Positions 28,657 through 63,625 of a stretch of 64,000 nucleotides of DNA are shown one piece after another. How positions within the stretch are numbered: position 1 is the stretch's first letter; the number at the start of each line of letters is the position of its first letter. Source of the stretch: Hydractinia symbiolongicarpus (taxonomy: Eukaryota > Cnidaria > Hydrozoa > Anthoathecata > Hydractiniidae). The translations under genes were made by a program, and so were the position numbers. The notes beneath the pieces are model-generated. The model did not search any database. It was not told the origin of the DNA and saw nothing but the letters and a program-made list of their open reading frames with translations. The stretch is from NCBI RefSeq assembly GCF_029227915.1, contig NC_079889.1:2356001-2420000 (forward strand), read 5' to 3'.

Positions 28657-31600
28657 CTAGTTATTTTTACAAACCGTGTTTTGAAGCACTTTAAGAGATA
28701 TAAGGCAATCCTCTTCTCTTTTGGAATTTGTCTGACCAGTTATGAGTGCACTATCAACTTCTTTCTCCAACCCAACTGATGGAAACAATCTCGAGGCTTC
28801 CTCTGATGTTCTCCTATATATCTTATCCCCCTTATCTTCCATTTCGGTTGAACTTTGAACACAAGAAAGCATGCTGATTGAAGATGAATTTTTTTCCTTT
28901 ATGTTTTCATCTTTTGACTTATCTGATTTTCTTACTCGTTGGAAAGTGCGTTGTGTAGCTTTCACAGCTTTTGACAGCATTTTAAATCGCTTTTTCTTCT
29001 TCTTCTTTTCCTTAGTAAAAATGGTCGTGTCCTGGTTGTTTATACTTTCAAGGCTTGCTTGTGCATCATGATCATCTTCTCCATGAAACGAATTCCAGCT
29101 TCCTTTCATGTGCGCTTCCGAAACAAGCAGATTTGAATCGGTTGACTTTTCTATGCATGCATTTGTTGACGAACCAATCAGTTGATCGATTAGACAACTG
29201 GAATTGCACGCAGACAAATCAAGTTTGTCATAATCAGAATCAATAGGCAATTCATTATCATTAGAAATACAGCATGCACCATACTCCACGGTGATTGAAC
29301 TTTCTTCTATTTGTCGTGCCTTTGAAAAACCTTGTGAGCTTTGGTCCTGTATGTTTTCAATTTTTTCGTATTGTAAACTTTGATGCTGAGTGCATTCTCT
29401 TTTTTCGTGAATTCCAAAGTTCTTATTTTTCTGGAGATCTTGCTTGCAATCAACTTTCTCACCTGCATCAACTGGCAGCTGTTCTTGCAATAATCTCTCT
29501 GAGCTTTCGGTATACCTATATACATCCTCACATAGATATTTTTCAGTTGTCGTACAAACACCATTGTCCACGATGGTTGTATCTTCCTCTATTTGTGGCG
29601 ACCTTGGGAAGCGTTGTGAACTCTGATGCTGGGTGCTTTCCACTTCTTTATATAATTCCAAGGTATTATTTCCACCGATACTTTGTTGACCATCTACTCT
29701 CTGATTCATAGAAGAACCAGTTGGTGGCTGCCCTTGCATACATTTCCCTGTATTTTCAGTATCTTTAGAAACATACTCATCTACGAACTGTACGTTGCAA
29801 GACCCGGTGGTAAAATCTTTCTCATTTGTTGCACATACATCATTGTCCCCGATGGTTGGGTCTTCCTCTATTTGTGGCGGCTTTGGGAAGTATTGTGAAC
29901 TCTGATGCTCCTTGCTTTCTTTTTCTCTATATTTATCCATGGCATTAACTTTGCTGAAATTTTGTTCGTCAATTACTCTTTGATTTACCGGAGAATCAGT
30001 TAACTGCTGTTTTTGTATAAATCCATCTGTGTTTTCAGTATCGTTAGAAACATACTTATCTCTGTACAGTGTTTTGCAAGACCTGTTGTTACAATTTCTT
30101 TCAGTTGTTGCACACGCATCATTGTCCACGATGGTTGAATCTTCCTCTGTTTGTGGCGGCTTTGGGAAGCTTTGTGGACTCTGATACTGTGTACTTTCCA
30201 TTTCTCCATATATATTCAGGGTATTATCTCCAATGATATTTAGTTGGTTATCTACTTTTTGGTTTACAGAAGAATCAGTTGGTACTTGTTCTTGTAGGAT
30301 TCTGTGTGAGTTTCCAGAATCCTTAAAAATATGCTCATCTCCGAAATTTGTCTGATCAAACCTGCTGGTAAATTCTCCTTCAGTTGTTGCACACACACCA
30401 TTGTCCACGATGGTTGTATCTTCCTCTATTTGTGGCGACCTTGGGAAGCGTTGTGAACTCTGATGCTGGGTGCTTTCCACTTCTTCATATAATTCCAAGG
30501 TAGTATTTCCACCGATACTTTGTTGACCATCTACTCTCTGATTCATAGAAGAACCAGTTGACGGCTGCCCTTGTATATATCTCTCTGTATTTTCAGTATC
30601 GTTAGAAACATACTCATCTACGAACTGTGCGTTGCAAGACCCGGTGGTAAAATCTTTTTTATTTGTTGCACATACATCATTGTCCCCGATAGTTGGATCT
30701 TCCTCTATTTGTGGCGACCTTGGGAAGCGTTGTGAACTCTGATGCTGGGTGCTTTCCACTTCTTCATATAATTCCAAGGTATTATTTCCACCGATACTTT
30801 GTTGATCATCTACTCTCTGATTCATAGAAGAACAAGTTGACGGCTCCCCTTGCATACATTTCCCTGTATTTTCAGTATCGTTAGAAACATACTCATCTAC
30901 GAACTGTGCGTTGCAAGACCCGGTGGTAAAATCTTTCTCATTTGTTGCACATACATCATTGTCCCCGATGGTTGGGTCTTCCTCTATTTGTGGCGGCTTT
31001 GGGAAGTATTGTGAACTCTGATGCTCCGTGCTTTCTTTTTCTCTATATCTATCCATGGTATTAACTTTACTAAAATTTTGTTCGTCAATTACTCTTTGAT
31101 TTACCAAAGAATCAGTTAATGGCTGTTTTTGTATAAATCCATCTGTGTTTTCAGTATCGTTAGAAACATACTTATCTCTAAACAGTGTTTTGCAAGACCT
31201 GTTGTTACAATGTCTTTCAGTTGTTGCACACGCATCATTGTCCACGATGGTTGAATCTTCCTCTGTTTGTGGCGGCTTTGGGACGCTTTGTGGATTCTGA
31301 TACTGTGTACCTTCCATTTCTCCATATATATTCAGGGTATTATCTCCAATGACATTTAGTTGGTTATCTACTTTTTGGTTTACAGAAGAATCAGTTGGTG
31401 CTTGTTCTTGTAGGATTCTGTGTGAGTTTCCAGAATCCTTAAAAACATGCTCATCTCCGAAATTTGTCTGATCAAACCTGTTGGTAAATTCTCCTTCAGT
31501 TGTTGCACACACATCATTGTCCACGATGGTTGGATCTTCCTCTATTTGTGGCGACCTTGGGAAGCGTTGTGAACTCTGATGCTGGGTGCTTTCCACTTCT

Positions 31601-34600
31601 TTATATAATTCCAAGGTATTATTTCCACCGATACTTTGTTGACCATCTACTCTCTGATTCATAGAAGAACCAGTTGACGGCTGCCCTTGTATATATCTCT
31701 CTGTATTTTCAGTATCGTTAGAAACATACTTATCTACGAACTGTGCGTTGCAAGACCTGGTGGTAAAATCTTTTTTATTTGTTGCACATACATCATTGTC
31801 GCCGATGGTTGGGTCTTCCTCTATTTGTTGTGGCTTCGGGAAGTATTGTGAACTCTGATGCTCCTTGCTTTCTTTTTCTCTATATCTATCCATGGTATTA
31901 ACTTTACTGAAATTTTGTTCGTCAATTGCTCTTTGATTCATAGAAGAATCAGTTAACTGTGTAAATCTATCTGTGTTTTTAGTATCGTTAGAAACATACT
32001 CATCTCTGAACTGTGCTTTGCAAGGCCTGTTGGTACAATCCTTCTTAGTTGCGGCACACACATCATTGTCCACGATTGCTAAATCTTCCCCTATTTGTGG
32101 CAGTTTTGGGACTTTTTGTGAACAATGATGTTGCTTGTTTTCCCCACTCATCTCTTGGCATTCCACTTTGTGACTCACAGACGAATTATATGGATGCTGT
32201 TTTTGTATCACAGTTTGATTTTTGGCAAAACCTGCACATTTATGTTCCTCTCTAAACTCTGATGCATTAGATCTGTTGGTTAAACTTTTCTCATTTGTTA
32301 CACATCTACCAATGTTCTTCATGGTGAAACTACTGTCTATTTGTGGCGGCGTTTGATACTGCGTAAACCTCTGGCAGTGCATGACTTCTTTTTCTTGATT
32401 TCTTTCATAGCTAAATCTACCATGGAACTTTTGTTGGTCATCTCCTGTTTCAGTTAGAGAAAAGTTATGTGGTTGCCGATCTCTTATGTTTTCTTGCGTG
32501 TTATTTCTCTTTAGTATATACCTGTCTAGCAGTTTTAAATCTGTTCCTTTTTCATCATTTATATATGCTGTATTCTTTGATTGGCAGTCGCATTTCATTT
32601 TTTCTCTATTTGTCTGCACCAACCCAATCCTTTTTTCAGGAGATATTCCCATCACAAGAACTTTCAAATGTTTTACGTCTGCGTACAGCAAGTCATTACT
32701 ATGGTTGCTTCCCAACAACGTTTCAGTGCTGCTCGATTGGTCCAAGGAGCTCTCTGCGCTTTCGTTTTGTGCTAGTTTACCTTCAAATCTTTTACTGGGG
32801 ATATGCATCCATTCTTCATCTTTATCTTGGAGCATCGGCTTCAGTGGCTGTTTATTTAAATCCTTCTCAGTTATTGCACGTGCATCACTGTCCACGATGG
32901 TTGTACTTTTCTGTTTTTGTGGCAGCTGTTGTAAGTGTGGTGGACTATGGTACATGCGTTCTCCTTCTCCATGCTTTTCAGAGTCAGTACATTCGCCAAT
33001 ATCTTGTTGGCGATCTACTTTCTCACTCCTCGAAGAATCAATTGACGGCCATTTTCTTATCATTGCCTCTGTGTTTTCAATATTTGTGCGCATATGGTCA
33101 TCCCGGAGCATCGACTTAGATAGGTGTTTATTTAAATCCTTCTCAGTTATCGCACGTCCGGAACTATGGTTGCTTCCCAATAACGTTCCAGTGTTGCTCA
33201 ATTGGTCTAAGAAACTCTCTGTGCTTTCGTTTTGCGCGAGTTTACCTTTCAATTTTTCACTGACAACATGTATCCATTCTTTATCTTCATCATGGAGCAT
33301 CACATTAAATGGGTGTTTATTCAAATCCTTTTCTGTTATCGCACGTCCGTCACTATCCACGATTGTTGTACTTCCCTGTTTAAGTGGTGGCTGCTGGAAG
33401 TGTTCTGGACTATGGTACACGCGTTCATTTTCTCCATACTTTTCATAATGAGTACGTTCTCCAAGATTTTGTTGGTAATTTACGATATCAACTGCAGAAG
33501 TATTGATTGTTGGCTGATCTTTCGACAGGTTTTGTGTGTTTTTCATATCTGTGCGCATATGGTTACCAAGGAGCATCGTCTTATATAGGTGGTTATTTAA
33601 ATCCTTCTCCGTTATGGCACGCTTGTCGCTGTCCAAGATGGGTGTACTTCCCTGTTTTTGCGGCGACTGTTGGAAGTGTTGTGGACTACGGTACATGGAT
33701 TCTCCTTCTCCATGCTTTTCATAGCGAATGTCTTTGTCAAGATTTTGTTCGTAATTTACTTTATCACCTGCAGAGGTATCGATTGTTGGCCGATCTTTTG
33801 ACATTTTCTCTGTGTTTTCGGTATTGATGCGCATATGGTCATCTTGGAACATCGATTTAAATGGGTGTTTATTTAAATCCTTCTTCGTTATCACAGGTTT
33901 GCCGCTGTCCAGGATGGGTGTACTTTCCTGTTTTTGCGGCGGCTGTTGGAAGTGCTGTGGACTACGGTACATGGATTCTCCTTCTCCATGCTTTTCATAG
34001 CGAATGTCTTCGTCAAGATTTTGTTGGTAATTTACTTTATCACATGCAGAAGTACCGATTGTTGGCCGATCTTTTGACATTTTCTCTGTGTTTTCGGTGT
34101 TGATGCGCATATGGTCATCTTGGAACATCGATTTAGATGGGTGTTTATTTAAATCCTTCTCCGTTATCGCACGTTTGTCGCTGTCCAGGATGGGTGTACT
34201 TTCCTGTTTTTGCGGTGGCTGCTGGAAGTGCTGTGGACTACGGTACATGCGTTCTCCTTCTCCATGCTTTTCATCACTGTCTACATAGTTGAGGCTTTCT
34301 GGTGTTCGCAGTGGCTGCAGGGAGTATTGCGGACTATGATGCATACTTTTTCCTGTTCTGTGCGTCTCATAGCCAATGGTTTCGCCAAGATTCTGCTGGC
34401 CATCTACTTTCTTACTTTTCAAAAAATCAATTGACGGCTGTTTTCTTATCATTTTCTGATTGTTTTCAATATCTGTGGGTATATGGTCATCTCGGAGCAT
34501 TGTTTCCAATAGCTGTTCACTGGAACATTTCTCCGTTATTGCATGTGCATCACTGTCTACAATGAATTGGTTTTCCTGTTTTTCCGACTGTTGAAGGAAG

Positions 34601-37600
34601 TGTTGTGAATTCCGATGTAGACTCTCTCTTTTCATACAATCTTCTTGTTCTTGTTCTTCGTAGCTGTACATTTTTCCGTCTTGTAATATATTTGGTAAAA
34701 TTATTACATGGGAATTTGATGGAGGACTTTCTAAAGTGTCTTCGTCTTCCAAAGATTCTTCTTGCAGATGCGCTTGATTCTGATCGATTTCTAAACCTTT
34801 ATCCTGCTCGCCTATACCACAATAGGAACTAACATCCTCAGGTATTTCTTCATACACTGGCTGGACATCCACGACGCAATCTGGTTTATCATGTTCTAAC
34901 TGAACTGTTGAATATTCCACTGACTCCATACCATATTGGTTCCTGTCATCCTTTTGCGTCATGTAACATTCATTCGCTATATCTATCCAATATTCGATAT
35001 TTAGGTGATTGACACTATCAGACTCTGGTGAATCTGTTATTGGGGGTGTTGAATTGGATGTGGACGATATTATAATATCAGGTATGTCGTCCCAAGTGTC
35101 CATAATATTTTTGGTCCTGTAGAAAAAAATTTCAAAAGAATTGAACCCTTTTTAATTGGTTTTTAACTTAAACTTGCAGAATAAAAAGCTTAGAGTTACG
35201 ACTGAGAATGAAAGACAAATTTATTTTGTCACTTTCTTTTCTTACGCAAAGTTGTCCAGAAATTATAAGCTTTTTGATTTTGTTTCATGTTGCAAGAACT
35301 GGCTTCGTATTTCTTGGTTAGGGTAATTATTATCAATCGCATGGCATTGTATGTTTTGTACAAGGGAGGGCTTAAGATTGTAAGTACGTAAGAAGCAACT
35401 TAGGCAAACAAGGGGAGGAAGTTAAAAAAACAGATTGGCTTACTTTAAACAGACTTCTCGTTCAGTTGGTAGATATGTTTATATAGGAAGAGATCCTAAC
35501 ACGAGGATATTCTATTGTTTCGTTTTAAGTGCTCATATTTTCATCTTGGAGCAGCGAATTAAATTAAGTGGTAGTAATTAGAACTCCGCTTACCTCATTT
35601 CATTCCTGTACAGCAAACATATAGAACCCACTGCTATTATCATGAGAAAAAGTTGGATTAGTATACAAGTCCACAATACTTGTGACCATGTACGAGCAGT
35701 TCTTATAATATTGTTGTATTGCTCTTTGTGCTCTGCGAAGGGATCAATGAGTGTCTCTAAAACATAGAATACGCCATGAAAATCATGTACATGTCGATAA
35801 TACAATTCTTTTTTTTTTACTTTAAGATCTACAGCTTACTTTTAAAGTGTTCGGAGCAAGTAACTGTACAATTTCTCCGTTCACGGTTGTGTCCAATGCA
35901 TCGGACTCCCCCTTTGCTTGGAGCAGATGTCAAGCATGTTCGTATTCTAGAGGTAACACCATTTCTGCATTTGCTGGAGCATCGTAACCATGACGACCAT
36001 TCTGACCAAATTCCATACACTGTAAGTATAACAAAGATGTATAAACAGTAGGATTAATGTTGATAAAAAGGTAAAACACTGATTTTTTAGCACAATTTTC
36101 ACGTGAAATATTCATTGGAAATGAAGGTGTGACTTTAAAAATTCAAATAATTTGGCTAGGCGCAGTAATCAAGCAAGGTTGCTAGAGGTGTCGAAAGTTT
36201 TAAAATAAGCCAAATGATCAGTCTCCTTCTCAGGGTTTTGCATTCTTGATATAAAAGATGACGGCGAAAAATATTTGCCGCTGATTTCTTTCATATTAAC
36301 AAGGCAAAAATCCCACGGGACGAAGGTGCCAGACAATATTGAAAGCATATTTAATTACCTACCGCACGGATGATAATTACAGCTTTTCGTCTCTGTACCC
36401 TTTTCTTCTGCTCCCTCGCACAATTCTTGTGTTATAACCTTCTCAGCTCTAATACACGGTCGTGTGCGATTGACGATACCTCCATTGCATTCAGCAGAAC
36501 ACTCTAAACTCCATGCAGACCATTCGCCCCAATCTCCCGCGTCTAAAAAAGCATGGCGCTATGAGCTACTGCGGATAATCATTATAGTTTTACTCTCTTT
36601 AAACCTCGGTTAAGCAGATGATTTGTAACTGCTTACAAACGTTCGAAATTAATTTTTTACATGCACTTTCATTGCGTAAAAAGCCAATACTGGAAGTCAA
36701 TTGATGACTGATAAACGAACTTAATTAAGTGTTTACTTGATATATGATGAACATGAATAGTAGTGACAATGTATAACATAAATGACAAAAAACATTTCAC
36801 GCTAAAAGATAACAATTGAAGCATAAAGTTGACATTACAGAGCATAATGAACATAAAAATCTCTCAAAGCTATTAACATTTTATTTTATTAATCTTATCT
36901 TTGTATTTCTTGATCCTCGAACAAAAATGATTGTTGGATACAGTAAAAAACGAAAACATACTAGAACATGAGGTAGGGCTGCAAACTTCATACATCTTGT
37001 TTGGTCCAGGGCACACGCCTTCACCATTTTTGCATTCCCGGTGGCGATATCTTGTTTTGGTGTCACACGAACAGTCAATCCAACTCGTCCATGGCGAAAC
37101 CCATTTTCCTAGAGTAAACAGAGACGACTTCGTTTTAATCTTCCCCACTATGACGGCATTTTTTTATTTTTAGAAATTAAGGTTGAATTGTTTTCTTTGG
37201 TAAAACGGATATTTTTGTTACTAAGTATTATTGTGTTTTTGAACAATTGAGCCAGAAAAAAAGAAACGACCACATAAATTCTATCTTGGCTTATTTTTAA
37301 GACACAATGGCAAAATCTGACTCGTATCATTCTTAGTTTCGAAAACATTGATTTGAGGCTAAAGCTGTTCCTATTTTGTTCTTATTATTTTGGCAAATTC
37401 TAAGGTTTGCATCTCTTTAATAATAACCGTATTCCGTCTGTCTGTCTCTGCGAGGACCCCCCGCTTAGTTAGAAAGACGTTTTACGAAAACACGAATATC
37501 AAATGCGATATATTTTTATCCACTTTGTTGCGACGGGTAAATTTAAAGGACGGGTAAACCTGTGGATTTATCCATGGTCACGACTAGTCTCTTTAATAAT

Positions 37601-47475: not shown

Positions 47476-50310
47476 ATAGAACTGTCACGTTCATGTCAGA
47501 TTATGCTCCACAGTATGGACCTAGTGAGGAAGGTAAAGATAAATTTTATGATGAGTTAATAGCACTCACATAAATGTTTGTAGACAGTGAACTTGTCATG
47601 GTAAGCGGCAATTTTTATGGTCATGTTTGGAAGTCATCTGAAGGTTATAGAGGTGTACATGGAGGCCATAGATTTAGAAGCAGAAATAAGAAAAGGGAGA
47701 GATTGCTTGAGTTTATAATGGGAACGAACATCATGGTTTGGAACACATCATTCAGTAAGAAAGAGGGTAGGCTGATAACATATTAGTCAGGTGGTTGTCA
47801 GGCACAGATAGATTACTTCCTTGTTAAAAAGTCAGATAAGGTGGTAAAGGGTATGAAGAGTGTGTTTTCCCAGCATAGGTTGTTGGTTTGTGGTATTATC
47901 TTGAAGAGTGTTGAAGAAGTCAAGGGAAAGCACAGACCTATCGTAAAGTTTTGAAGTTGAAGAAAGAGATTGTAGCAGTGCAAAAGTTCAGCAGTTGGTC
48001 CACAATGGTCAATGTGATAGTGAAAATGTTGAAAGTACTTGGACTACATTGAAGAATTGTCTTCCTGAAGATTCTGATGATACCTGTGGGTGGATGGAAG
48101 AACTAGCTAGATGTAGACAAACCTGGTGGTGAAATAATAAGGTTGACAGTGTAAACAGGAAACTATGGAAAGTCAGTAGAAGTCAGGTGGTAGTAAAAAT
48201 ATTTACTTAGAAGCTAATACAAGCTCATAAGCAATTTACAGATGTGATAAGAAGAGAAGACCAGTGCAGAGAGGTGTTCAAGATAGCAAAGCAAATGAGG
48301 AAAAGTAATCAAGGGTGTTGCAGGCGAAAATTGTAACAGTAACGATGAAAGTGTCTTGGCTAGCACAAAGGAGGAAAAAAAGCTAACTTGGAAGAGTTAT
48401 TATCAAAGGTGCTTAACACAGATTTTGATTGGTTTAAAGATAATTTGCCTGATGATGATGTTGAGAAAGGCCAGCTATTCAGATTAAGACAGAGTGGGTA
48501 GTGGTGGCTATTAGGAAAATAAACAGCATGGCTGCAGGAGTATCAGGGTTGTTGTAGAGTTGGGAATATTGTCTGGATATACTAGAGATGAGCGTTATAC
48601 AAGTCTTGCTAATCAAATATAAAGGATGGTGTTATGCGTAGTATAATAGCGAATTGAGAGGTAACTATAGAGGGTTAAAGTTGGTTGATCAAGTATATTA
48701 TGAGAGTTTTTAAAAAAGTGATTGATAAGTTACTTAGAGAAAGTTATAATAAATTTCTTGACACATTTTTAACTAAAGCTTTCTGCTATTTTTAAATTAA
48801 CAGTCATAGAGTATATTCCTATATGGAAAAAAAATTGCAAGGTCATAAAATGAATATTTGAACTCTATACCATAATGTCAAAAAAAAAACACAACATGAA
48901 AACTAATCAAAAAACAATAACTGATCAAGTAATGAAAGTTATTGAAAGAGTGATTGATAAGTTACTTAGAGAAAGAATTGATATAGATAAGATGCAATTT
49001 GGTTTTGTTCCAGGGCGTGGCACTACAGATATTTTTACTCCGATAGCTTCAGGAAAAGTATTTAGGAAAGAGAATCTCTATTTTGCCTTTGTAGATTTAG
49101 GGAAAGCTTTTGATAGAGTGCCACGTAAGGTTATTTGGTGGGCTATGAGAAAATTAGGTGTGGATGAGTGGCTAGTTACGATGGTACAATCTATGTACAG
49201 CAATGCTAGTAGTCGTGTCAGGATTAACAATTCACTTAGTGATGAATTTAGTGTAAATGTTGGTGTACATCAGGGTTCTGTACTTAGCCCTTTGTTGTTT
49301 ATTCTAGTCTTAGAGGTGCTGTTGATGGAGTTCAGAACAAGTTGTCCATGGGAGTTATTGTATGCAGATGACTTGGTTCTCATAGCAGAGTTGATGGAAG
49401 AATTAGTTGAAAAGTTTGAGAAGTGGAAGAAAGGACTCGTGATTAGTAGCATTGCAGCCAAGTGTGACCTTGTAGTTGAAAAGTGGCCTTGTGGAGTTTG
49501 CAGGAAAGGGGTTGGTAGTAACTCAATTTTTTGTCAGACTTGCAAGCATTGGGTACATAAGAAGTGCAGTAGTATTGGTGGAAGGTTAAGAGCTGACATT
49601 CAGTTTGTATGCAAGCGTTGCAAAGGTGAGATTATAGAGAATGAAGTATTTCCAGCTTTAATGATGTACAACAGTGGCTCGTTAGAGATAGTTAAGAACT
49701 TCTGTTACTTAGGTGATATGTTGGGCAGTGAAGGGGGTGTTGGAAGAAGTGTTACTTGTAGGATAAGTTCTGCTTGGAAAAAGTTCAGAGAGTTACTTCC
49801 TTTGTTGACTAGCAGAGTCCTGTCAATTGACGTAAAAGTTAGGTTGTATAAGGCCTGTGTAAGAAGTTTTATGTCGTACGGTAGTGAGACATGGGCAGTG
49901 AAGCAGGAAGATCTTGGCTGTTTAGAAAGGAATGATATGAGAATGGTTAGGTGGATGTGTAATGCCAATCTGAGAGATAAAAAGAGTTTAGATGAGCTAA
50001 GAAGCTGGCTAAGTATCCATAGAATTAAAGATGTTATCCAGATAAGAAGATTGAATTGGCTGGGGCACTTGGAAAGAATGAAGGAGGATAATTGGGTAAG
50101 AAAGTGTAGAGACTTGATAGTTCCTAGGGCAAAGCCCAGAGGCAGACCGAGAAAGACTTGGCAGGAGGTTATAAGGACAGACTTGATACAGAGGAAGTTG
50201 AGTTTAGATCTAAAACAGTCTAGATCAGATTGGAAGAGGGCCATTAATATACCCCGTCCAACCCATGCTAGCATGGAAAACAGACGTTAAGCCGAGAATG
50301 ATGATAATGA
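47476..50310 (+). mobile_element. Decayed non-LTR retrotransposon (APE endonuclease + RT)
   Basis: A 5'-truncated, broken LINE-like element. From 47,480 the frame reads MSDYAPQYGPSEEGKDKFYD, then (after a stop) MVSGNFYGHVWKSS, SGGCQAQIDYFLVKKSD: the order of motifs of an APE-type endonuclease, with the GDFNGH motif changed to GNFYGH. The reverse transcriptase follows at 48.66-50.29 kb. No LTRs are seen. The 3' end is a short ATGATGATAATGATGA-like tail near 50,305, typical of simple tails of such elements. The clade (RTE-, CR1/L2- or related) is not resolvable by eye. Confidence 0.8.
48660..50290 (+). pseudogene. Reverse transcriptase ORF of the non-LTR element, with PHD-like zinc knuckle
   Basis: An open frame from 48,875 keeps most of the RT: QFGFVPGRGTTD, FAFVDLGKAFDRVPRKVIWW, GVHQGSVLSPLLFI, and LLYADDLVLIAE. 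The finger region is shortened (TPIASGKVFRKENLYF) and about 20-30 residues are missing after WKKGL. It is followed by a cysteine/histidine cluster CGVCRKGVGSNSIFCQTCKH then W-VHKKC and CKRC, which resembles a PHD finger, and by a conserved C-terminal region (RLNWLGHLERM, PRGRPRKTW). A 58-bp segment around GTGATTGATAAGTTACTTAG occurs twice (about 48,684 and 48,918), flanking 175 bp of unrelated AT-rich DNA, so the 5' part is rearranged. Not expected to be functional. Confidence 0.8.
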
Positions 50311-51564: not shown

Positions 51565-51568
51565 AAAT

Positions 51569-51615
51569 CACGGCTGTTTCAGCTAGCGAGATTTCGGAAA
51601 CTCAGACTGCGCATG
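51569..51615 (+). repeat. Left terminal inverted repeat of the RAG1-like element
   Basis: CACGGCTGTTTCAG, then ten extra bases around CTAGCGAGATTTC, then GGAAACTCAGACTGCGCATG. Preceded directly by AAAT. Confidence 0.88.
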
Positions 51616-52048
51616 TCAAAAAAAAATTTAAAATAAGGACTGGGGCGAGTTGCGCTTAAAAGTAAACAAATTTTAGGGTAGCTAGCACCAGGTTTAATAG
51701 GCATTTTAATCACATAAACCAACTTAAGGACTGGAAACTAAGTGGTTTAAATAAAATATAGTCCTATACCAATAAGATTAATTCAAATACAAAGCTATTC
51801 GCTTGTTGCCTAGCTAAAACAAAACAAAAACTTTCAACCTCCATTTTGAAGACTGTGGACACCATGCCAACTTAAAGCAAAATATTTTCAGATACGAAGT
51901 TATCCCACAGATAATTTTTATAAAAATCATTCCAAGATAGTTACGAGATACGAATAAAAAAAGAACTGTAGGTGTATCAGTACATTACGAATTGATATTG
52001 TATCAAACATTAGGTACTTTTTTTTCAAAATTTTTGTTAAAGTTCAAG

Positions 52049-55000
52049 ATGGCTACTGGGGATTTACACCTAGCTCGGTTGAACAAGCTGTGTCGAATAT
52101 GTGGAAACACTCTGCCTGGACGATCACATATTGTCCAAGAGCACATAAAGAACTTGGACAGTATTTTCAGAGCTGATTTTTATTCTGATCGGGCAGGCAT
52201 TCACCCAAAAAAATTCTGTCACTCGTGCTTTGCTACAATAAGTAATGTCCTAAAACGTGACTCAGCTACCGCTATTGTGCCTGTTAAATGGTATACACAT
52301 AAAGACACCGAGTGCAAAACATGCATATTAAGTGCACAAAAAAAGAGAGGTGGCAAACCTATGAAAAGAAGGGGCGGTGGTAACCCAACACACAAAGCTG
52401 TGGATTCCGCAGAAAAAACTTGGACACCCCTAGAACTTAATAAAATTTACAGAAAAACCTCTGAACTTTTTGACTATAGTGGAAACGTTCTCTCAGACAT
52501 AAATATCAGTGAAGGCAACTGGGAACATCTGATTTGTGCTTTGTGTAGCAATATTTTAAAAAGGCCATTAATGATAAACCAATGTAACCACGTGTTTTGT
52601 GCCTTGTGTTTAACAAATTGGTTGGAAAATTCAAATAGATGTCCCACCTGCAGCATCCCAACAACACCCGGGGATGTCTCGCCTGGTTTGTGCATTTCCA
52701 GGATTTTAAACACACGAGTTGTCAAGGGAACATGTGGTTGTTCATTTAAACTGCTGTCTGCACAATCGCACACATGCTCTCCAGCATTGTCATTTACAAC
52801 ACTAGAGATGATGCAGTTGAGCCCTTCCAAGCCTGTACCGAAAAAGGTAGAAGAATGCATTGCTCATGTGGTTGGAATAAAAATGCAGCAGTCAAACTTG
52901 CCGAATAAAACTGTCCAATTGCCCAGTGGAAGTTCACAAGTAAGATTACTTATGTATGGAGTGGACTCAGTAAAAGTGATTTGACATTGACTTTTTTTAA
53001 CAAGCAACTGATTTTCAAACGGCTGATAAAGCAAAAAACTTTGATCTTAGCAATTTTAAGGCTGAAATCAAAACTGAAAATAAGTTGCTTTTGTATATGT
53101 CTATATATGTGCATACCTAGGTTATCATTTTTTTACAATTCCAGTGAAATGTTTCTTATACACATTTTTTATACAAAAAACAAGCCATAATAAGAACAAG
53201 ACAAATTTTAAAATGTTCAGAGTAAATAATTAAAAATAATAATAAATATAAGTAAGTGGCTAGAGGGGTCACAGAATATAGGAAGTTTTGGGGGTCAATA
53301 AAAACCATTCTATATATTAGGAGATTTACTAAAATTTTGATGTGCCCACCCTAAATGCTAAGGCGTCTACATCGTTAAGTGATCTTATATAAAAAATGTG
53401 TATAACTACTTTATACAAAAATACAAAACTATGCTATGTTATATTAAAAATAATGTACACATAATTGTCTGTAACAATATGATAATTTTAATAGTAATAT
53501 TACATTTTACATAAAACAAATTAATAACATATGTTCCATATTTTAGCCATTGACAATAACACCCATTAGAATTCCTCGCAAGTCTTCTGATGAAACATGT
53601 GAAAGGAATGTGCGGAAAAGAGCAAATACAGCCAAGGAGTTAATCCATCTGATGTCTGGTGAAGAAACCCAATCTGTCACAAAACAGACCACAGCACTGC
53701 TAAAGTCTATGGAAGAAAGTGACAGAAATACTATCATTAAAAATTTGGGTACAGAAGTCATTATTCCAGCCAATCACATCACAGCAATGAAATCAAATTT
53801 AAACATGCCATGGAATCAACTACGTGAAATATCACGTTGGTTGAAAACATTCAACATAAAAATTGAATCAGAAAAAAAAGCAAGAAGTGTCGCTGCTGAA
53901 TGGGTAGGCCAAGGACTGAGAGTTGAGCTGGCTCCTCTCACCAAATTATCAGTTGGAAACAGGGTATCCGTTATACCTAGGCCCTGGGGGTATCTGTATA
54001 ATGTAGTTGGCCACATTCTGTATCAACTCAAAAAGCTAGAATGTCACAATTTACTTGTAAAACATAGTTTCATTCCTGACAATGAGATCCATGTTAAAAT
54101 TGGTGGAGACCATGGAGGAAATAGTTTTAAAATGGCATATCAAATAGGCAATGTTCTAAACCCAAACAAGAAGGAAAACACAATAATGTTTAGCATTTTT
54201 GAAGGTAACAAACATTAATGCAATATATTACAAATATGAAAAAAAAAAAATTAAAACTGGAATTTCCAAAATTCTATGCATGTGATGTCTAATTGTGATC
54301 TAAAGTAGAAATGATCTAAGTGATCTAAAGTAGAAATCAAAACATTTTTTATATTTTTTTTTTAAATTAGGGAAAGACACAAGAACAAACTTAAGAGTCT
54401 GCCTTGAACGGTTTCGACCACAAATAAAAATGCTGCAACAAGTCAAATATAAAGAGTCGATATTCCGTGTATTTATGTATGGCGACTACGAATTTCTGTG
54501 TGCAATGTATGGTATAACTGGTGCAAATGGTAAATATTAATTACTTAAGATCTGGGGCAAGTTGCTAGTTGATAATCAAAATTAATTAATTTTTGACCAC
54601 AAATAAAAATGCTGCAACAAGTCAAATATAAAGAGTCGATATTCCGTGTATTTATGTATGGCGACTACGAATTTCTGTGTGCAATGTATGGTATAACTGG
54701 TGCAAATGGTAAATATTAATTACTTAAGATCTGGGGCAAGTTGCTAGTTGATAATCAAAATTAATTAATTTTTACAGAACTTTTTTTGCAACTTCATAAA
54801 GTTCCTGTAGTTTAACAATGGGTTTTTACTACGCAGATATGGGAAATGCATAGTTAAAAATGGTTTATTTTTAAAAGTTTCTAATAAAATATGTATACTT
54901 TAACATTTGTGTTTAGGGCGTCACAGCTGTTTGTTTTGCAACATTACCTCAAAACTAATGAACATCCCAGTGTTTACTCGCAAGAAATTTAAGAAAAGGT

Positions 55001-56693
55001 CACTGGCGACACTTGAAGAAAATTTAGCAGATTTCCGTGAAAGTGGTGGGAGCCCTAAAAATGCGAAAGAATTTTATAATGTCATTGACAACATATTTTT
55101 TGACATACCTATTGATCAAGTATACATCATATTTTTATGCTTTTCCACTGCAAGTTGATTTAATAATCCCAAAATAAAATCTATATAAACACCTAATTTT
55201 AGGTCTGTATTCCTGGTCTTCATATTTCCTTGGGTGTATATCAAAAGATGTTTAAAATGTTTGAGTCTTCTTGCCAAGACTATGATGTAAAAATAGCTCT
55301 GCTGTTGGCAACAGAAGACAATGAACTGGATTCAGATTATGGTGACTACATCGAAGTCCTTAAAGAAACAAATGACTTGCAGCAAAAGCTGGAAGATGAA
55401 AAAGCCAAATTAGCAAACCAGCAAGATCAGTTAAACTGGCTTGTAATATCTGGTGGCTTACAACGAAATATACTGACGTACGAGAAAAGTATAATAAAAA
55501 CTGAGAAGAAAATCACAGAATTAGAATTAGAAATCTCAACCTTGGGAAACAACAAAAGAATTTTAGTGGGTATGATCATTTTTATTACCTAAGTAATTTT
55601 TTGTGATATTCGCAAATGTTTTTTTGTCTGGAAATTCCAAGAAATTTAATTCCCGAAAAAAAACTTTCCAAAATTATAATTTTCATTCTGATCTTATGAT
55701 GCAAGCCTTATATTCTCTCCAATCTAAAGCTATGTTTAATAGTTTGTTCATCTTATTTTAGGTGTTGGTCCTTGTGCTTCTTCAATAGATAAAACGCTGC
55801 AAAAAATGGGTGTTGAACGTCAGGCCTACCATGGCCAAAGTTTTATCGGCAACCATGTACATAAATTGCTAAAGGTTTGTTAATACTAACAATAATGTAG
55901 CAATTTAAAAATAACATATTTAAAGAAAATTAAAAAAACAATCTTGCTCTTATAGAAAGAAAACATCCAAAATTTAACATCCAGCATTAAAGAGATTGTT
56001 GCAGCACAAAAGCATGATGACCAGCTTATTCACAGTGTGAATTTAGAAATGGATAAGTACGACATGTTATTTACTTACTTTGCAGAAGTTCATAACATTT
56101 ACAATTCGGCAAAATATCTGTCATGTGAGGAAATACTGGCTTTAGGTGAGAAACTTGTTCCTTTTTTTAATAATAAATAAGTTTTTTTTAAAATTTCATG
56201 TGCCAAAAACAAAACAAAAAGAAAGAATAATATACATATAGTACATAATTCTAGAAATTTCAATTAATAAATTCATGATGCATCTGCGAACTAACTGGCC
56301 AAAAGTTAATATTTCACCAAAACTGCATATGCTTGAAGATCATGTCACTGAGTTCATAGCAAAATGGAATGTTGGATTTGGGTTTTATGGCGAACAAGGT
56401 AAACAGCCACTTAAATTTGTAACCTGGTAACACCAAAATTTGTGTTTTTTACCAAAATGTGTTATTTTTCAGAAAATGTGTAGCTAGCTAGCTTAAATGT
56501 CAAATTATAACATTTTTAAGGTGGAGAAAGCTTGCATCATGAAATCAACAGGATGTCGAGCAGGTACAGCTGCATCAAAAACCCAGTCGAGCGGTTACGA
56601 AATACATTAAAGCAACATTTTGTTAATGTAAATCCTGAATCGAGCCAATTAAAACCAAAAATTAAAAAAAGAAAAATTGCACGTGAAGAATAA
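52049..56693 (+). CDS. RAG1-like DDE transposase with N-terminal RAG1 zinc region and RING
   Basis: Nine exons join in frame to 965 residues: 52049-52939, 53547-54204, 54371-54529, 54917-55119, 55203-55569, 55762-55874, 55956-56145, 56255-56398 and 56521-56693. The N terminus follows the RAG1 order: CRICGN (C15, C18), IHPKKFCHSC (C57, C60), W81-H84-C89-C92, then a C3HC4 RING finger (C163-C201, QCNHVFCALC). Exon 2 covers the position of the RAG1 nonamer-binding and dimerisation region, with a lysine/arginine-rich start. Catalytic signature: D485 (KIGGDHGGNSFK), D555 (VFMYGDYEFL), C574-x2-C577, L643-H644, H885-x4-H890 and E911 (GEQGGESLHHE), the pattern shared by CACTA-Mirage-Chapaev, Transib and RAG1. 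A coiled-coil insertion lies at about 680-755. The tail is lysine-rich (KPKIKKRKIARE), a probable nuclear signal. It should bind the terminal repeats and cut them in the nucleus. No stops or frameshifts are seen. Confidence 0.9.
54416..54773 (+). repeat. Exact 179-bp tandem duplication over a catalytic exon
   Basis: 54416-54594 and 54595-54773 are identical. The unit covers the last two thirds of exon 3 (with D555), its splice donor (G|GTAAAT) and part of the following intron. The second copy keeps the donor but has no AG acceptor before it, so it is best read as a pseudo-exon that is skipped. If it were retained, the frame would break. Confidence 0.9.
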
Positions 56694-57484
56694 CTTTTAG
56701 ACTTACAGCTTAGATAGCTAGTTATATCTTTAACTGCATATTAGCATTACTTTGCAAGCTCCTTTAGTCTTTGCATTATTTCAAAGGTGGATCAGCTGGT
56801 CTAGAAAGAAAAAGAATTGAACAGTTAATTAGCTTACTACATGCATAGTTCATTTTTATTTGACTTTTTGTCGAGCTTACGTTAGTAGTGTATGAGACGC
56901 AGAAACCTTATTTAGAGTTACAGAATTGTTTATATAGAATGTTGTTTAGTGTTGTTATTCTGTGAAATATTAGCTTAGTAAACTACAACAGTTTTAATGC
57001 CTACAATAAATCATACAGTAGATTATGTCAAAGAGGGAGTTAAAATTTTCAGGTTTTACACTAACTTTTATTGCCAGAATTCAGCGCTCTAGCATTCTTT
57101 CAGAAGTACTGATACAGTTTTTTCGTTTTTCTTACCTTGTAGATGAGCCTTTCAGCTTTCCAAAAATATATAATACACCAGCCACATAACTTCGCAACGT
57201 CCACAAAACCAAAAATTAGTTGGAACAAGTTGCCATGTTAATTTTAACAAAAAAAAGTATGCCTTCAAAACTGCCACAGTATTACTCCAACAGCATGCTT
57301 GTCGCAAAGGTAAAAGAAAGATTTAGCTTCCAGCGTGTTGAAATGCTTTAAAAAACTAAATTAAATCCACTGAAATAGATTCTATCATGCAAAAGCGATT
57401 TCAAAAAGTTAGTTACTTATTTATCATGATTGTTTTTATTTGCGCCCGCCATCTTGCGCCTCAACGTGGCCGTAATTATTGACG
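56694..57484 (+). other. 3' part of the RAG1-like element
   Basis: Non-coding 3' portion between the transposase stop codon and the right inverted repeat. No open frame or RAG2-like sequence is present on either strand. Confidence 0.6.
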
Positions 57485-57521
57485 CATGCGCAGTCTTAGT
57501 TTCCGCTCTGAAACAGCCGTG
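57485..57521 (-). repeat. Right terminal inverted repeat of the RAG1-like element
   Basis: Read inward (minus strand) it is CACGGCTGTTTCAG, AGCGGAAACT, AAGACTGCGCATG. Followed on the plus strand directly by AAAT. Confidence 0.88.
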
Positions 57522-57525
57522 AAAT

Positions 57526-59475: not shown

Positions 59476-62400
59476 TCACATAATACGGCATTTATTTTTA
59501 TTAGACACGTGCGTTAAACAGAAGTCATACGATTCTTGAGTTTGAATAGTCTCCCTGTGGAGTTTTCCAAGAACAGATTCTTGTTTCACAAGCAAATTTT
59601 TATATAAATTAAGCGCCTTCTCATGTTTTCCTTCTTGGTGGAAACAATTTGCAATTTGTTTTTCAGTTTCAATTGTATCATACTGTAGCTCACCTAAAAT
59701 CTCTCTTTGAAGCTTTAAAATTTCTTCCAGCTTTCGTTTTCTTTCCTGAATGTCCAAAGAAAACATTGCAATGTTATATAAAGTTTTTAAAGTATGAGGG
59801 TGATCGGGTCCAAGAACAGATGTTTGAAGGGATCTAACGTCTCGTAAAATCTCGAGACCTTCGCTTATTTTTTCACGCTTAAAAAGAGTTTTTGAAACGA
59901 TGACCTTTGCTAGCAGTAATAATGGGTGACTGTCGCCAAGTTCAGAAGCATTCTGCATCGCTTTCGTTAATGTGTCGTAAACTTGTTCAATTTCGTTTTT
60001 TTCCAAGTCATTGATCAATAGACACTCTGCGTGCAGAATCTTTGACTTCACTTTCAAAACATGACATTCCTCTAATTCAGAACCAATCCTCAGTACTTCA
60101 TTAATATTATCTATAGCTTCTTTCGTTTTACCAAGGTAGAAATAGCTTCTCGCAAGCTCATAATAAGCTCTCAGTTTATAGATGTCATCAGGTTGGTAAC
60201 ATTTGGAATCTGTTATGGTAATCAGCAGGTGGATTGCATCTTGATACTTGCTACAGTCAACAAGACAACTTGCAAAACGAAATTTAGGGATAACTGTTTC
60301 TGGTTTAACTTCGCCATGAGTGACTAGGTATTGTTGATAGACATTGTCGTATATAACATGAGCTTCTTTGTAATGACCCATATGCTGCAAGCAAATGCCA
60401 ATGTTGAGTTTGTGTGTTAAATTAGCTATTGACTTTCTGCATGCACTTAATTTCTCGACTTTCACGTACAATTCGTAGGCTTCTTTGTACTCTCCCAGTT
60501 GCAGCAGGCAATTGGCTATGCAATTGTCAACAAATTCATACTTTGTCAGCGTTTCTTTCACATCCATATAAAGATGTAAAGCTTTTCTATAATTTCCTTT
60601 AAAATAATATGTTTTTGCAAGTTCAAGTTTGGTATGTCTGACATCAGTATGATCCTCTCCATGCAATTCTATTCTAACCTTTAGAATGTCACTGTATTCT
60701 TTAATAGCAAGAGAATAATTTCCTTTCAGGCAAAAACATTCTGCGATATCTATCCTATTTAGCAAAGAGTGATGATTGAAATCGTTTCCTAATTGTTTTC
60801 TTTTTTCTTTTATTTCTAGAAGAAGATTTAGAGCTTCTTCAATCTTTCCAAAGCTTTTGAGAGCATTAGCGAGGCAATTATACACATTTAATGTTTCTTG
60901 ATGGTGATCACCAAGTGTTTTGATGCATTCTGGCAATAAATTATGTAGCATATCTATTGCTTCTTCGTGCTTACCTAGTCTAATAAGAAATATAGATTTA
61001 TTTCGATGTGCTAAGAAATAAACGACTGCTTTTGTAGGATGGGATTTCCCATATAGTTGAATAGCATTGTCAATCACGGCCAGAGCTCTTTCGTTGTTTG
61101 CTAGATAATAATATTCCATTGCTATGTTTATATCTGTTGTAAGTTTTGATTGGTTAAAAATAGGAGTTTTTTCTTTTAATCTTAAATCTTCATATGCGTT
61201 TAGAGCCTCTTCATTGCGGCCAAGACGTGAATAGCAAAACGCAATGTGATGTTGGACATCAGTAGCATTTGACAGCTTTGTACCTGGTATAGCACTGGTA
61301 ATTTCTTTCATCTGGAAGCAAATATCTAACGCTTCTCTCCATTTCCTTAGGTTAATCAAGGACAGAAGAATCAATTTCAAGGTATCGAAAGTAGTTTGGT
61401 TTGGTTCGTGTTGATCTTGAATAATACATTGCAGAAAGTCTAAAGCTATATCATCATTGCCAACATTGGTCAAAGCAGCCGCAAAATAATACTTTAAACG
61501 AGCAAGGAACTTTCGCACTACAATGTCATCTTTTGATGTGTGAAATATTTGAATGATGTGATGCAGCCACAGGGATCCAAAATTAACATGTTCCACATTT
61601 TCTTTTTCGTCAATTATACATTGAAATGCATTGAAAAGTACTTCCAGGAATTGATCACTTTTAGCCAAAATTTTAGATAATTCTCGAACAACTCGCTGTA
61701 CCAAACCATGAACAGTTATGTAGCATTCTCGTGTAAGATAATTGCGATGAATTTGGATAAGTGAGAACTGCTCCAATGACTTCATGGCATCTTCTATGTC
61801 TTCAATACTGTAACAATCAAACAAATTAAATAATTGCTTTTCAATTTTTAGACCGTCCATGAAAGATAGTATTCCCATGAGATCATTTACAATGTTATTC
61901 TCACACTGTTCAAGAGAGTTCAACGTCATCATGATGGCACTGTAGAAGTTGTGTTTGTACATAACATCATCAGAAGCAAATGACAACAATCTATGTGCTT
62001 GTTGTTGTTCTTTAAATTTCTTAATATACTCCTTGGTTGTGATAACATGATGTTTCATAAAGTTTATGCTTTGCTGCAGAGCTAATGGAAAACCTTCTAA
62101 CAATTCATACAGTTCGTTTAAGTTATCGTTATCTTCGATGAGTTCTTTAGGCAAGTAATTGCGAATGAGCTCTGTAGATTCTTCTTTTGTTAACGTTGTG
62201 AGGCTCATTTCATTCACTCTTTGTCCCCATTTAGACAATCTTGACGTGATCAGGATAGTCGAATTCGATGCAGGCGATGAAAACGATTTAGGTAACACAT
62301 CCAAAATCGTTTCATGTTCGTCAGCGTTATCGAATACAAACAATATTTTTCTGTCTAAAAATTTGTCGAATATTTCTGCTAACAAAAGTTTAACATCAAA

Positions 62401-63288
62401 AGACTGCTCGTGATCTAAAAGTTTCAAATGTCTTGCTAGACCAGCAACTGATGTTTTTAAAGCTTCAATTCCATTTGCGTTTAACCATATAATGTTATTA
62501 TCATAACTCTCTGAATATTCGTAACAATAAAAAAGCGCAAGAGAAGTTTTTCCTGTGCCTGGTAATCCAGTTATAACAGTCGGGATTCTAGAATCTGATG
62601 ATAACATGGAATGTAGCTTCACTACATCCAGCTTTCTTCCTGTAAAAGAAGGAATTAGCGACACCACTCCGAAAGAAATACCGCCTTTGAACGGAGTCTC
62701 AAAATCAAGGAGGGCTTTTGCAAGCTCTAAAACTTTTTCATTTGACTTTTCTAAATCTTTCTCTTTTAGTTTCAGCAATGCTGAAGTATTGTTATCAAGG
62801 GGCATGTTAATGATCTTTTTCACAAACTTCAGGTCACAACCTAAGGCGACCATTGAATTACCAATGTCGTTTAGGAAGTCATGATATTCAACATCCGTTT
62901 TCTTCAATCGATTGTGCATTAGTTTATTTCTGCTAAGCTGTATTCGAACAATATGAGCGGAATCCGATTTATCAGTGTTTAACGGTGGATTATGCCATCC
63001 CGTTTTTGGTTTTGGTATTTTTCTCACAAATCTGAGCAAAGCTGCCAAGAGACTAGCATCATAAGTTGTAGGATCAGATTCTACAGCACCGTTTGGATAT
63101 ACGATTTCAACTTGATATGGAAGTAATTTAGATCGTAGATTCTTCTCTTCTTTCCTGAGAACATCTTGAAATGTCAATGGTCCAGTTTTATAGGGAGCTG
63201 TAAGATATTCTCGAAGTGTGTTGAGTGACTCGTCTAACAATTTGTGTAACCGAAGACCTCTCTCTTCATCTTCTGTAATGGTACTCAT
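59476..63288 (-). CDS. HEPN-NB-ARC-TPR STAND protein (NLR-like), possible CaaX end
   Basis: Single intact exon, 1,270 residues. Residues about 10-160 match the DZIP3-type HEPN domain (LLRFVRKIPKPKTGWHNPP, then RNKLMH); R120-x4-H125 is the HEPN Rx4-6H motif that serves as the RNase centre in active members. The NB-ARC domain follows: P-loop GLPGTGKTS (241-249), Walker B ILFVFDNAD (315-323), TILITSR (344-350) and GFPLALQQS (399-407). A winged-helix-like part precedes tandem TPRs from about 590 to 1,260, of the kinesin-light-chain type (GPDHPHTLKTLYNIA). This is the layout of STAND switches that oligomerise on sensing a ligand through the repeats; cnidarian genomes hold many. The protein ends KNKCRIM, a candidate CaaX box, so it may be prenylated. 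The start ATG at 63288 is in good agreement with the domain start. The ligand is unknown. Confidence 0.9.
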   Translation of the reverse strand: MSTITEDEERGLRLHKLLDESLNTLREYLTAPYKTGPLTFQDVLRKEEKNLRSKLLPYQVEIVYPNGAVESDPTTYDASLLAALLRFVRKIPKPKTGWHNPPLNTDKSDSAHIVRIQLSRNKLMHNRLKKTDVEYHDFLNDIGNSMVALGCDLKFVKKIINMPLDNNTSALLKLKEKDLEKSNEKVLELAKALLDFETPFKGGISFGVVSLIPSFTGRKLDVVKLHSMLSSDSRIPTVITGLPGTGKTSLALFYCYEYSESYDNNIIWLNANGIEALKTSVAGLARHLKLLDHEQSFDVKLLLAEIFDKFLDRKILFVFDNADEHETILDVLPKSFSSPASNSTILITSRLSKWGQRVNEMSLTTLTKEESTELIRNYLPKELIEDNDNLNELYELLEGFPLALQQSINFMKHHVITTKEYIKKFKEQQQAHRLLSFASDDVMYKHNFYSAIMMTLNSLEQCENNIVNDLMGILSFMDGLKIEKQLFNLFDCYSIEDIEDAMKSLEQFSLIQIHRNYLTRECYITVHGLVQRVVRELSKILAKSDQFLEVLFNAFQCIIDEKENVEHVNFGSLWLHHIIQIFHTSKDDIVVRKFLARLKYYFAAALTNVGNDDIALDFLQCIIQDQHEPNQTTFDTLKLILLSLINLRKWREALDICFQMKEITSAIPGTKLSNATDVQHHIAFCYSRLGRNEEALNAYEDLRLKEKTPIFNQSKLTTDINIAMEYYYLANNERALAVIDNAIQLYGKSHPTKAVVYFLAHRNKSIFLIRLGKHEEAIDMLHNLLPECIKTLGDHHQETLNVYNCLANALKSFGKIEEALNLLLEIKEKRKQLGNDFNHHSLLNRIDIAECFCLKGNYSLAIKEYSDILKVRIELHGEDHTDVRHTKLELAKTYYFKGNYRKALHLYMDVKETLTKYEFVDNCIANCLLQLGEYKEAYELYVKVEKLSACRKSIANLTHKLNIGICLQHMGHYKEAHVIYDNVYQQYLVTHGEVKPETVIPKFRFASCLVDCSKYQDAIHLLITITDSKCYQPDDIYKLRAYYELARSYFYLGKTKEAIDNINEVLRIGSELEECHVLKVKSKILHAECLLINDLEKNEIEQVYDTLTKAMQNASELGDSHPLLLLAKVIVSKTLFKREKISEGLEILRDVRSLQTSVLGPDHPHTLKTLYNIAMFSLDIQERKRKLEEILKLQREILGELQYDTIETEKQIANCFHQEGKHEKALNLYKNLLVKQESVLGKLHRETIQTQESYDFCLTHVSNKNKCRIM

Positions 63289-63625
63289 CTTCTCGCTTTT
63301 GGTAAAAGCTCTGAGCTTAGGTAATCGCCATGCAGTCTATCTAAACATTTGAAATTTATTTAATTCAGAAGTCATATGATGCGCTTTAAGCCAATTATAA
63401 TGACGTTAGATAAAACAGTTATCAAGGGATAGTGAGTCATTTTTATGGTAAACTCTTTCTACTATTAAGGTCGGTTTATTCAAGGAAATTCTTTAGTTTA
63501 TTTTCAACCAAAAGGTGTTTCAAAAATTTAAATTTCCTTTTAAATAGACGAATTGAAGTTTCCTCATTGTATAGAAATACAAAATTTCTAGAGCTACATT
63601 ATTTTGTTCTGAGTACGTTTTGAAC
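63289..63625. promoter_or_regulatory. Upstream region of the HEPN-NB-ARC-TPR gene
   Basis: Presumably contains its promoter and 5' UTR. I see no motif strong enough to name. Confidence 0.3.

Follow-up and report, generated by a model that had tools for sequence, protein, structure and literature searches.

Chapaev DNA transposons are characterized by CAC/GTG termini with target-site duplications of 3-4 bp (PMC4079192) and by a D-D-E core with C2C and H(3-4)H motifs (PMC12730594). In 2015 Kapitonov and Koonin reported Chapaevs that contain both Chapa and RING domains (PMC4411706). The duplication is a 3-bp TWA in Chapaev3 (PMC4079192) and is 5 bp long in both ProtoRAG (PMC8289069) and Transib (PMC8355894). 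Views on the ends of such elements diverge: according to one review, only a few Transibs show asymmetry of the 12/23 type outside V(D)J recombination (PMC8355894), whereas it has been argued elsewhere that asymmetric ends may be common in ancient RAG transposons (PMC8289069). The locus described here lies in the genome of the colonial hydroid Hydractinia symbiolongicarpus (assembly HSymV2.0), within an analysed stretch of 64,000 nucleotides (the window). The reading that we favour, with modest confidence, is that it is a complete, young Chapaev of the RING subgroup, a cut-and-paste DNA transposon that is probably autonomous and for which we infer that one short end is paired with one long end.

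The whole element spans positions 51569-57521 of the window, opening with CACGGCTGTTTCAG at 51569 and closing with CTGAAACAGCCGTG at 57521, such that its termini are inverted (5′-CAC ... GTG-3′). These boundaries, previously proposed from a sequence-only reading, proved exact to the base, with AAAT on both flanks. The 14 perfect terminal bases and second conserved block noted in the same reading are also present; the block has the consensus GGAAACT[C/A]AGACTGCGCATG and is 19/20 identical between the two ends. The features of the ends are:

51565..51568, unstranded, left target-site duplication AAAT (from copy comparison)
51569..51582, + strand, 5′ terminal block CACGGCTGTTTCAG
51583..51595, + strand, 5′ spacer of 13 bp, long form (from pattern search)
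51596..51615, + strand, 5′ second conserved block GGAAACTCAGACTGCGCATG, with A at positions 30-32 from the end and GCGCATG at 41
57485..57504, − strand, 3′ second conserved block GGAAACTAAGACTGCGCATG, with A at position 20 from the end and GCGCATG at 31
57505..57507, − strand, 3′ spacer of 3 bp, short form (from pattern search)
57508..57521, − strand, 3′ terminal block CACGGCTGTTTCAG
57522..57525, unstranded, right target-site duplication AAAT (from copy comparison)

The genome search for further copies that had been proposed as a check recovered no fewer than 23 near-identical loci, spread over many chromosomes (family A). Perfect 4-bp target duplications were found in 25/25 family A copies with both ends readable. 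This count was drawn from 28 loci, from which one with a rearranged 5′ end (L025) and two with one end each (L027 and L028) were dropped; L016 and L017 represent a single insertion that was duplicated together with its flanks. The full frame is kept in 19/23 loci, and an alignment of 22 loci contained 19 singleton substitutions in 128,439 bases, corresponding to a private divergence of ~1.5e-4 per base. The near-identity of the loci, the perfect duplications, the retained frames and the low private divergence indicate that the family multiplied very recently, and the number of copies, their identity, the intact frames and the target duplications strongly support the initial description of the element as complete, recent and probably autonomous. 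No clear target-site consensus was detected among 24 insertion sites. Heterozygosity in H. symbiolongicarpus is 1.33% (PMC11067881), compared with ~0.015% private divergence between copies, and the copies are predicted to be polymorphic in populations. The long intact frame would also be expected of a RAG1-like gene domesticated by the host, with repeats that are fortuitous and no transposon, but this explanation is refuted by the copies: the 23 or more near-identical loci are scattered over many chromosomes and have separate 4-bp duplications, and we give it virtually no weight.

Splicing of the gene in silico bore out the claim of an intact nine-exon frame, yielding 965 codons plus a stop without a lesion and GT..AG boundaries at 8/8 introns:

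52049..52939, + strand, exon 1, Chapa zinc region (PF12560 match, residues 38-103) and RING (residues 163-201)
53547..54204, + strand, exon 2, DUF1280 region and first putative catalytic D (GGDHGG, D485)
54371..54529, + strand, exon 3, second putative catalytic D (GDY, D555)
54416..54773, + strand, tandem repeat of two 179-bp units, covering the exon 3 tail, its donor site and the start of intron 3
54917..55119, + strand, exon 4, C2C zinc motif (C574, C577)
55203..55569, + strand, exon 5, LH..LG motif
55762..55874, + strand, exon 6
55956..56145, + strand, exon 7
56255..56398, + strand, exon 8, H(4)H (H885, H890) and putative catalytic E (GEQ, E907) close to the exon 8/9 junction
56521..56693, + strand, exon 9, C-terminus and stop

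The transposase contains the Pfam domains RAG1_imp_bd, RING and DUF1280. The D, D, C2C, H4H and E motifs of its core are common to seven families of this genome, with the C2C pair not recovered in family F.

Judged by sequence, the element is a member of the Chapaev superfamily and not a RAG1-RAG2-like transposon. It has the CAC...GTG inverted termini, the 4-bp duplication (in all 25 family A copies with two readable ends) lies within the 3-4 bp range, and the aligned motifs provide the D-D-E core with C2C and H(3-4)H, for which catalysis is predicted. The Chapa zinc region followed by RING, a combination also present in RAG1, corresponds to the RING subgroup. As in the Chapaevs of PMC4411706, these two domains precede a distant Transib/RAG1-type core; what differs here is that the family is young, multi-copy and complete at its ends, and that the second boxes of the two ends are displaced by one helical turn. 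Membership of Chapaev3 was ruled out by 4-bp duplications of varied sequence. An assignment to RAG1-RAG2-type (RAGL/ProtoRAG) or Transib transposons would account for the RAG1 N-terminal homology, the CAC ends and a core colinear with that of RAG1; however, the duplications are 4 bp rather than the 5 bp of ProtoRAG and Transib, and the core matches DUF1280-bearing relatives with E values down to 1e-211 and RAG1 cores only marginally. Moreover, a search for a RAG2-like partner found no second long sense frame beside the transposase (antisense frames of ≤129 aa were listed), which together with the 4-bp duplication led us to reject RAGL/ProtoRAG. We consider an assignment to either group very improbable.

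The relationship to RAG1 is clearest in the N-terminal part, where residues 38-229 match RAG1 156-357 (E 4e-11). When the core was aligned with 12 vertebrate RAG1 cores using hhalign, a colinear match over 466 columns was obtained (score 33.4, P 0.0034, probability 9%), compared with scores of 15.2-22.3 for six reordered controls. This improved score followed the addition of 11 further vertebrate RAG1 sequences to mouse RAG1, which alone gave a weak match (score 25.2, P 0.034, probability 1.5%; controls 14.1-19.8). A profile of relatives searched against PDB sequences reached RAG1 significantly only via the N-terminal part, and the closest PDB entry to the full-length protein was a RING2 chimera, via RING alone. 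With the RAG1 core as a protein query, 43 proteins were retrieved, and those that bear a name are vertebrate RAG1. Relatives were also sought in viral contigs (45 stretches matched a pattern, 0 confirmed) and in a prokaryote genome collection (104 matched, 0 confirmed). The original label "RAG1-like" therefore holds for the N-terminal part and, more weakly, for the colinear D-D-E core, but not for the type of transposon, which is Chapaev. N-RAG-TP of Aplysia shares the RAG1 N-terminal homology and is described as wholly RAG1 N-terminal-like (PMC8355894), while the present element adds a catalytic core and both ends. Survival of the frame had been taken to bear on RAG1 origin; by itself it is not new evidence, because this is a Chapaev transposon and the combination of Chapa and RING has been on record in that superfamily since 2015 (PMC4411706). 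The part that might bring such evidence is the asymmetry of the ends.

Within family A the second block is displaced: at the 5′ end 13 bp separate it from the terminal block, against 3 bp at the 3′ end. A search of 481 Mb with the two-block pattern, leaving the spacer free at 0-30, returned 57 matches, whose spacers were all either 13 bp or 3 bp long. The reversed pattern returned 0 matches in the same 481 Mb, which excludes chance as the source of the two-block pattern. Adjacent facing end pairs consisted of one short and one long end in 31/31 cases, and 29 of these carry one related group of ends. Several other matches were discarded: those of 44-45 bp that overlap an opposite-strand 51-bp match are by-products of the palindrome GCGCATGCGC, as is a single 51/45 end pair, and 34-bp matches look like one unrelated repeat. 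The sequence-only reading had not described the difference in spacer length.

Ten further loci (L029-L038) were examined, with both ends read in seven and one end each in L037 and L038; no ends were found for L032, and family F is represented by its sister copy L035. Ends of families C, E, F, G and I were chosen by a 4-bp duplication and similar termini, with an extra bonus in F and G for a GCGCA motif near each end. The offset was no criterion in this choice, and the duplications of these five families are not independent evidence. A 12/23-like displacement of about one helical turn (10-11 bp) was strong in family A and in four of the six other families with both ends read (E, F, G and I), with 0/2000 shuffles in each, and the joint score of the seven families was 115 against a null maximum of 43, in a shuffle test uncorrected for end choice. 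The offset was weak in families B, where a shift of 10 ties with 4, and C, where the best shift is 1. All families with a strong offset carry RING, whereas B and C lack it. The long form lay upstream of the transposase at 19/19 ends and the short form downstream at 9/9 (28/28 ends tested). All 13 types of 3′ end have A at position 20, and all 13 types of 5′ end have A at position 31, the positions at which the nonamers of 12- and 23-RSSs begin.

Like 12-RSS/23-RSS pairs and the asymmetric Transibs (PMC8355894), these ends combine CAC at the cut with a second-box A at 20 versus 31; unlike V(D)J RSSs, they differ in the sequences of both boxes and have an extra GCGCATGCGC box at 31 and 41/42 and no RAG2. 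Amphioxus ProtoRAG also has bipartite asymmetric ends, CAC at the cut and a related core, but its spacers are 27/31 (4 bp apart), its duplication is 5 bp and it has a RAG2-like partner protein (PMC8289069). End spacing is likewise unequal in the P element (9 versus 21 bp), which its authors liken to 12/23 RSSs, although that element belongs to another superfamily with an 8-bp duplication and a GTP-binding insertion domain (PMC7776569). In the available portions of the literature on Chapaevs, including those of PMC4411706, we found no mention of a one-turn end offset.

These features are consistent with a model in which the 965-aa transposase would bind both ends, cut 5′ of CAC with a predicted D485/D555/E907 active site and insert with a 4-bp stagger. 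A DNA-binding part in an asymmetric position would read the second box, in the manner of RAG on 12- and 23-RSSs, so that one short-spaced end would be paired with one long-spaced end. We infer a 12/23-like pairing requirement from the arrangement of the ends. Alternatively, in the same young Chapaev the spacer difference could be an inherited indel with no role in synapsis, the long 5′ spacer being kept by promoter overlap or by descent; we regard this as a serious possibility, though short of probable. All families read share common ancestry, every end tested on the promoter side has the long spacer, and B and C deviate from the offset. However, the offset holds at 9-11 bp in 13 five-prime end types although spacer sequence varies between families, and most of the 31 facing pairs, known from their ends alone, are 797 bp to 3.7 kb long, below the size of the autonomous elements read, and still have both forms, making a gene or promoter a less likely reason.

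Asymmetry, if functional as in the pairing model, bears on the origin of the 12/23 rule. A one-turn spacing rule could be ancestral to Transib, Chapaev and RAG1, with Chapaev 3′ ends 12-like and 5′ ends 23-like and RING-bearing transposases needing one of each; we put this forward as an unlikely proposal, under which the 12/23 rule would be older than RAG2 and vertebrate immunity rather than having arisen with them. Because asymmetry tracks RING presence across the seven families, the N-terminal part that resembles RAG1 may assist in reading the asymmetry. Chapaev ends would supply an outgroup for the disagreement between PMC8355894 and PMC8289069. The element gives a distant branch of the RAG1 superfamily a representative that is probably mobile and resides in a laboratory animal, and its intact copies and defined ends make this branch biochemically testable. 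Finally, a 179-bp tandem duplication that the sequence-only reading had not described was observed in the transposase gene, with units at 54416-54594 and 54595-54773; the number of units is 1, 2 or 3 among copies.

The element (window positions 51569-57521, forward strand) is 5,953 bp long, begins and ends in perfect inverted termini of 14 bp starting CAC, and is flanked on both sides by AAAT. Its predicted gene, spliced in silico, has nine exons, GT..AG at every intron and 965 codons plus a stop, so that the termini, flanking AAAT and intact frame described in the sequence-only reading were borne out. A EukProt-sourced protein aligns with 99% of the 965-codon model at 28% identity, and motif-bearing segments of the model were found again in other Chapaev families of the genome, giving the predicted gene indirect backing. 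Chapaev hallmarks include CAC...GTG termini and 3-4 bp duplications (PMC4079192; this and the other papers are cited from excerpts), and two Chapaev subgroups with Chapa, the zinc region PF12560, and RING were already reported in 2015 (PMC4411706). With its CAC...GTG termini, 4-bp duplications and Chapa and RING regions, the element is a new member of the Chapaev group with Chapa and RING. Other features of the window and its right edge are:

25860-27161, reverse strand, 433-aa frame, fucosyltransferase (Glyco_transf_10)
28657-35151, reverse strand, 2,164-aa frame, rich in repeats
48854-50290, forward strand, directly upstream of the element, reverse-transcriptase frame (RVT_1) that also has a PHD finger
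59476-63336, reverse strand, next to the element, long frame with HEPN_DZIP3, NB-ARC and TPR domains, STAND-type protein
G000:C15:2420192, 192 bp past the right edge, start of a 5′-type end identical to that of family G, another Chapaev family

The search for further copies with the same ends that had been proposed earlier was carried out on 481 Mb in 76 contigs (HSymV2.0 was published as 84 scaffolds, 483 Mb; PMC10411563). DNA matches numbered at least 40, comprising at least 23 near-identical loci (L001-L023) plus three more distant loci with 86-92% identity (L024-L026), together called family A; exon 2 as query recovered the same 23. Two of these, L016 and L017, have common flanks and represent one insertion, later duplicated. 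The ends were located first and the target duplication was checked afterwards: among 28 loci examined, all 25 with both ends readable carried a perfect 4-bp duplication. Alignment of 22 loci (L001-L023 without L017) covered 128,439 bases and showed 19 singleton substitutions, or 1.5e-4 per base; one additional base peculiar to the window copy falls together with a shared variant. The heterozygosity of H. symbiolongicarpus is given as 1.33% (PMC11067881). Of 23 loci, 19 keep an intact frame, and in five of the 19 a single amino acid is changed. L014 has lost 12 bp of exon 1 with the frame kept, L022 has lost 226 bp of exon 1, in L015 the stop is affected, and exons 2-5 are missing from L023. 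A protein from another sequence source (P0015), a 311-aa frame corresponding to exon 1 read through its donor, has 3/297 amino-acid differences. It represents another copy or an allele, closely related and located elsewhere.

A protein search of the genome gave 145 matches, and both ends were read in seven families: A, B (L029, L030), C (L034), E (L031), F (L035), G (L036) and I (L033). The ends of family B were inferred from comparison of its two copies, which have target duplications GGCC and TCCA. For C, E, F, G and I, a 4-bp duplication and similar termini were required of every candidate and the best-ranking one was taken (a GCGCA motif earning an extra bonus in F and G); the duplication, having been a condition of selection, is therefore not a result in these five. 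Further copies of these families carry several of the same ends. From one family to another, conserved core segments share 45-65% identity. By Pfam, exon 1 of all six families other than A carries PF12560; four of the six, E, F, G and I, also show a RING, and the other two, B and C, show none. A small tree shows two groupings: A, B and C with P0001 and P0004, the two nodes having support of 0.66 and 0.91, and E, F, G and I with each other, supported at 0.93. The RING-less family B (exon 2 identity 56%) is also young, since it has 15 exon-2 matches of almost equal score and its two copies (L029 2232-6780, and L030) are 99.96% identical over 4,549 bp.

Each end consists of a terminal block, a spacer and a second box. 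When any spacer of 0-30 bp was allowed across the whole genome, 57 ends had both boxes exact and the spacer was always 13 or 3 bp; among the copies read, the longer spacer marked the 5′ end and the shorter one the 3′ end. From one end to the other the second box is displaced by 10 bp in A and G and by 11 bp in E, F and I, each score being reached by 0/2000 shuffles. In family B a shift of 10 tied with 4 (17/2000), and in family C a shift of 9 was low-scoring (71/2000), the best shift being 1. Taken jointly, the seven families score 115; the 2000 shuffles averaged 30.3 (sd 2.3) and never exceeded 43. A loose pattern, CACGNNNNTTN{10,40}GCGCATGCGC, matched 216 times genome-wide and 0 times when read backwards; among the 100 listed of these 216, 23 were 40 bp long, 42 were 50-51, 14 were 34 and 21 other. 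Restricted patterns found 60 short ends, 54 of them exactly 40 bp, and 96 long ends, 83 of them exactly 50 or 51 bp.

Among ends fitting the two restricted patterns, to which the counts, pairing and polarity apply, all 31 adjacent facing pairs less than 8 kb apart joined a short with a long end, against 47% expected under random type pairing (29/31 from one related end group, 2/31 from another). Polarity was assessed at 59 of the 145 protein matches, a sample omitting near-identical A copies, the B set and some of the partial matches: 28 correctly oriented ends lay within 6.5 kb, all 19 upstream ones long and all nine downstream ones short. At G000:C13:19555520-19560612 and C5:11704698-11723422, elements of equal length that share the same short and long ends lie in clusters or back to back, which suggests local duplication.

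On balance, we lean towards family A being a young, probably autonomous Chapaev transposon that pairs one short with one long end. The encoded protein would act by DDE cut-and-paste transposition, cleavage and insertion would have a 4-bp stagger, and synapsis would join one short end with one long end. A somewhat less likely alternative is that the spacer difference in the same young element is an inherited indel with no role in synapsis. Ends are asymmetric in ProtoRAG (27/31; PMC8289069), some Transibs (PMC8355894) and the P element (9/21; PMC7776569), and asymmetry can therefore arise more than once. For protostome RAGL transposons, end asymmetry is regarded as of little importance (PMC7204232). 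Within a literature collection with few subscription papers, no paper dealt with Chapaev, terminal inverted repeats and asymmetry together; the one that mentions both Hydractinia and RAG1 is a review of innate immunity, and N-RAG-TP occurs in three.

The geometry of the ends can be set beside that of V(D)J recombination signals. GA at 19-20 was invariant in 13/13 distinct 3′ end types and A at 31 in 13/13 distinct 5′ end types, where the GA step lies at 28 in one, 29 in five and 30 in seven; the types were hand-chosen from pattern searches and family readings, are not all separate families, and in part had the GCGCATGCGC box range fixed by the search pattern, with the A left free. Signal nonamers start at 20 and 31, given a heptamer and a spacer of 12 or 23 (spacers: PMC8289069). 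The box sequences differ from those of the signals, and the Chapaev box boundaries are the analyst's choice.

Pfam domains of the predicted transposase:

Residues 38-103, RAG1_imp_bd
Residues 163-201, RING
Residues 373-540, DUF1280

The best PDB chain match was a RING2-BMI1 chimera, via RING (1e-11), followed by full-length RAG1 (residues 38-229 against RAG1 156-357, E 4e-11). With a profile of 14 relatives, the N-terminal domain structure of RAG1 came up at 2.6e-10, and no core match to PDB chains was convincing. The core retains D485, D555, C574/C577, H885/H890 and E907. A core profile of 11 sequences is colinear with 12 vertebrate RAG1 cores, pairing the C2C motifs, LHISLG with LHCDIG, the HxxxxH motifs, and GEQGGES with SEGNES, the motif with the RAG1 catalytic glutamate. 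This alignment is of modest significance: P is 0.0034 and the probability 9%, and its score of 33.4 compares with 15.2-22.3 in the controls (one reversed, five permuted). LOC130613560 is a relative protein in H. symbiolongicarpus.

Family A copies also differ in a 179-bp unit that runs from the exon 3 tail through its donor site into the first part of intron 3; the window copy has two such units (54416-54773). One unit is present in L018-L022, two in L001-L015 and three in L016/L017, L023 being without the region; L011-L013 have a small intron 1 replacement in common. Since these variants are present in several copies, they suggest more than one recent source, with repeated loss of units a possible alternative for the 179-bp variation. 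Surplus units would leave the frame untouched, provided the first donor is used.
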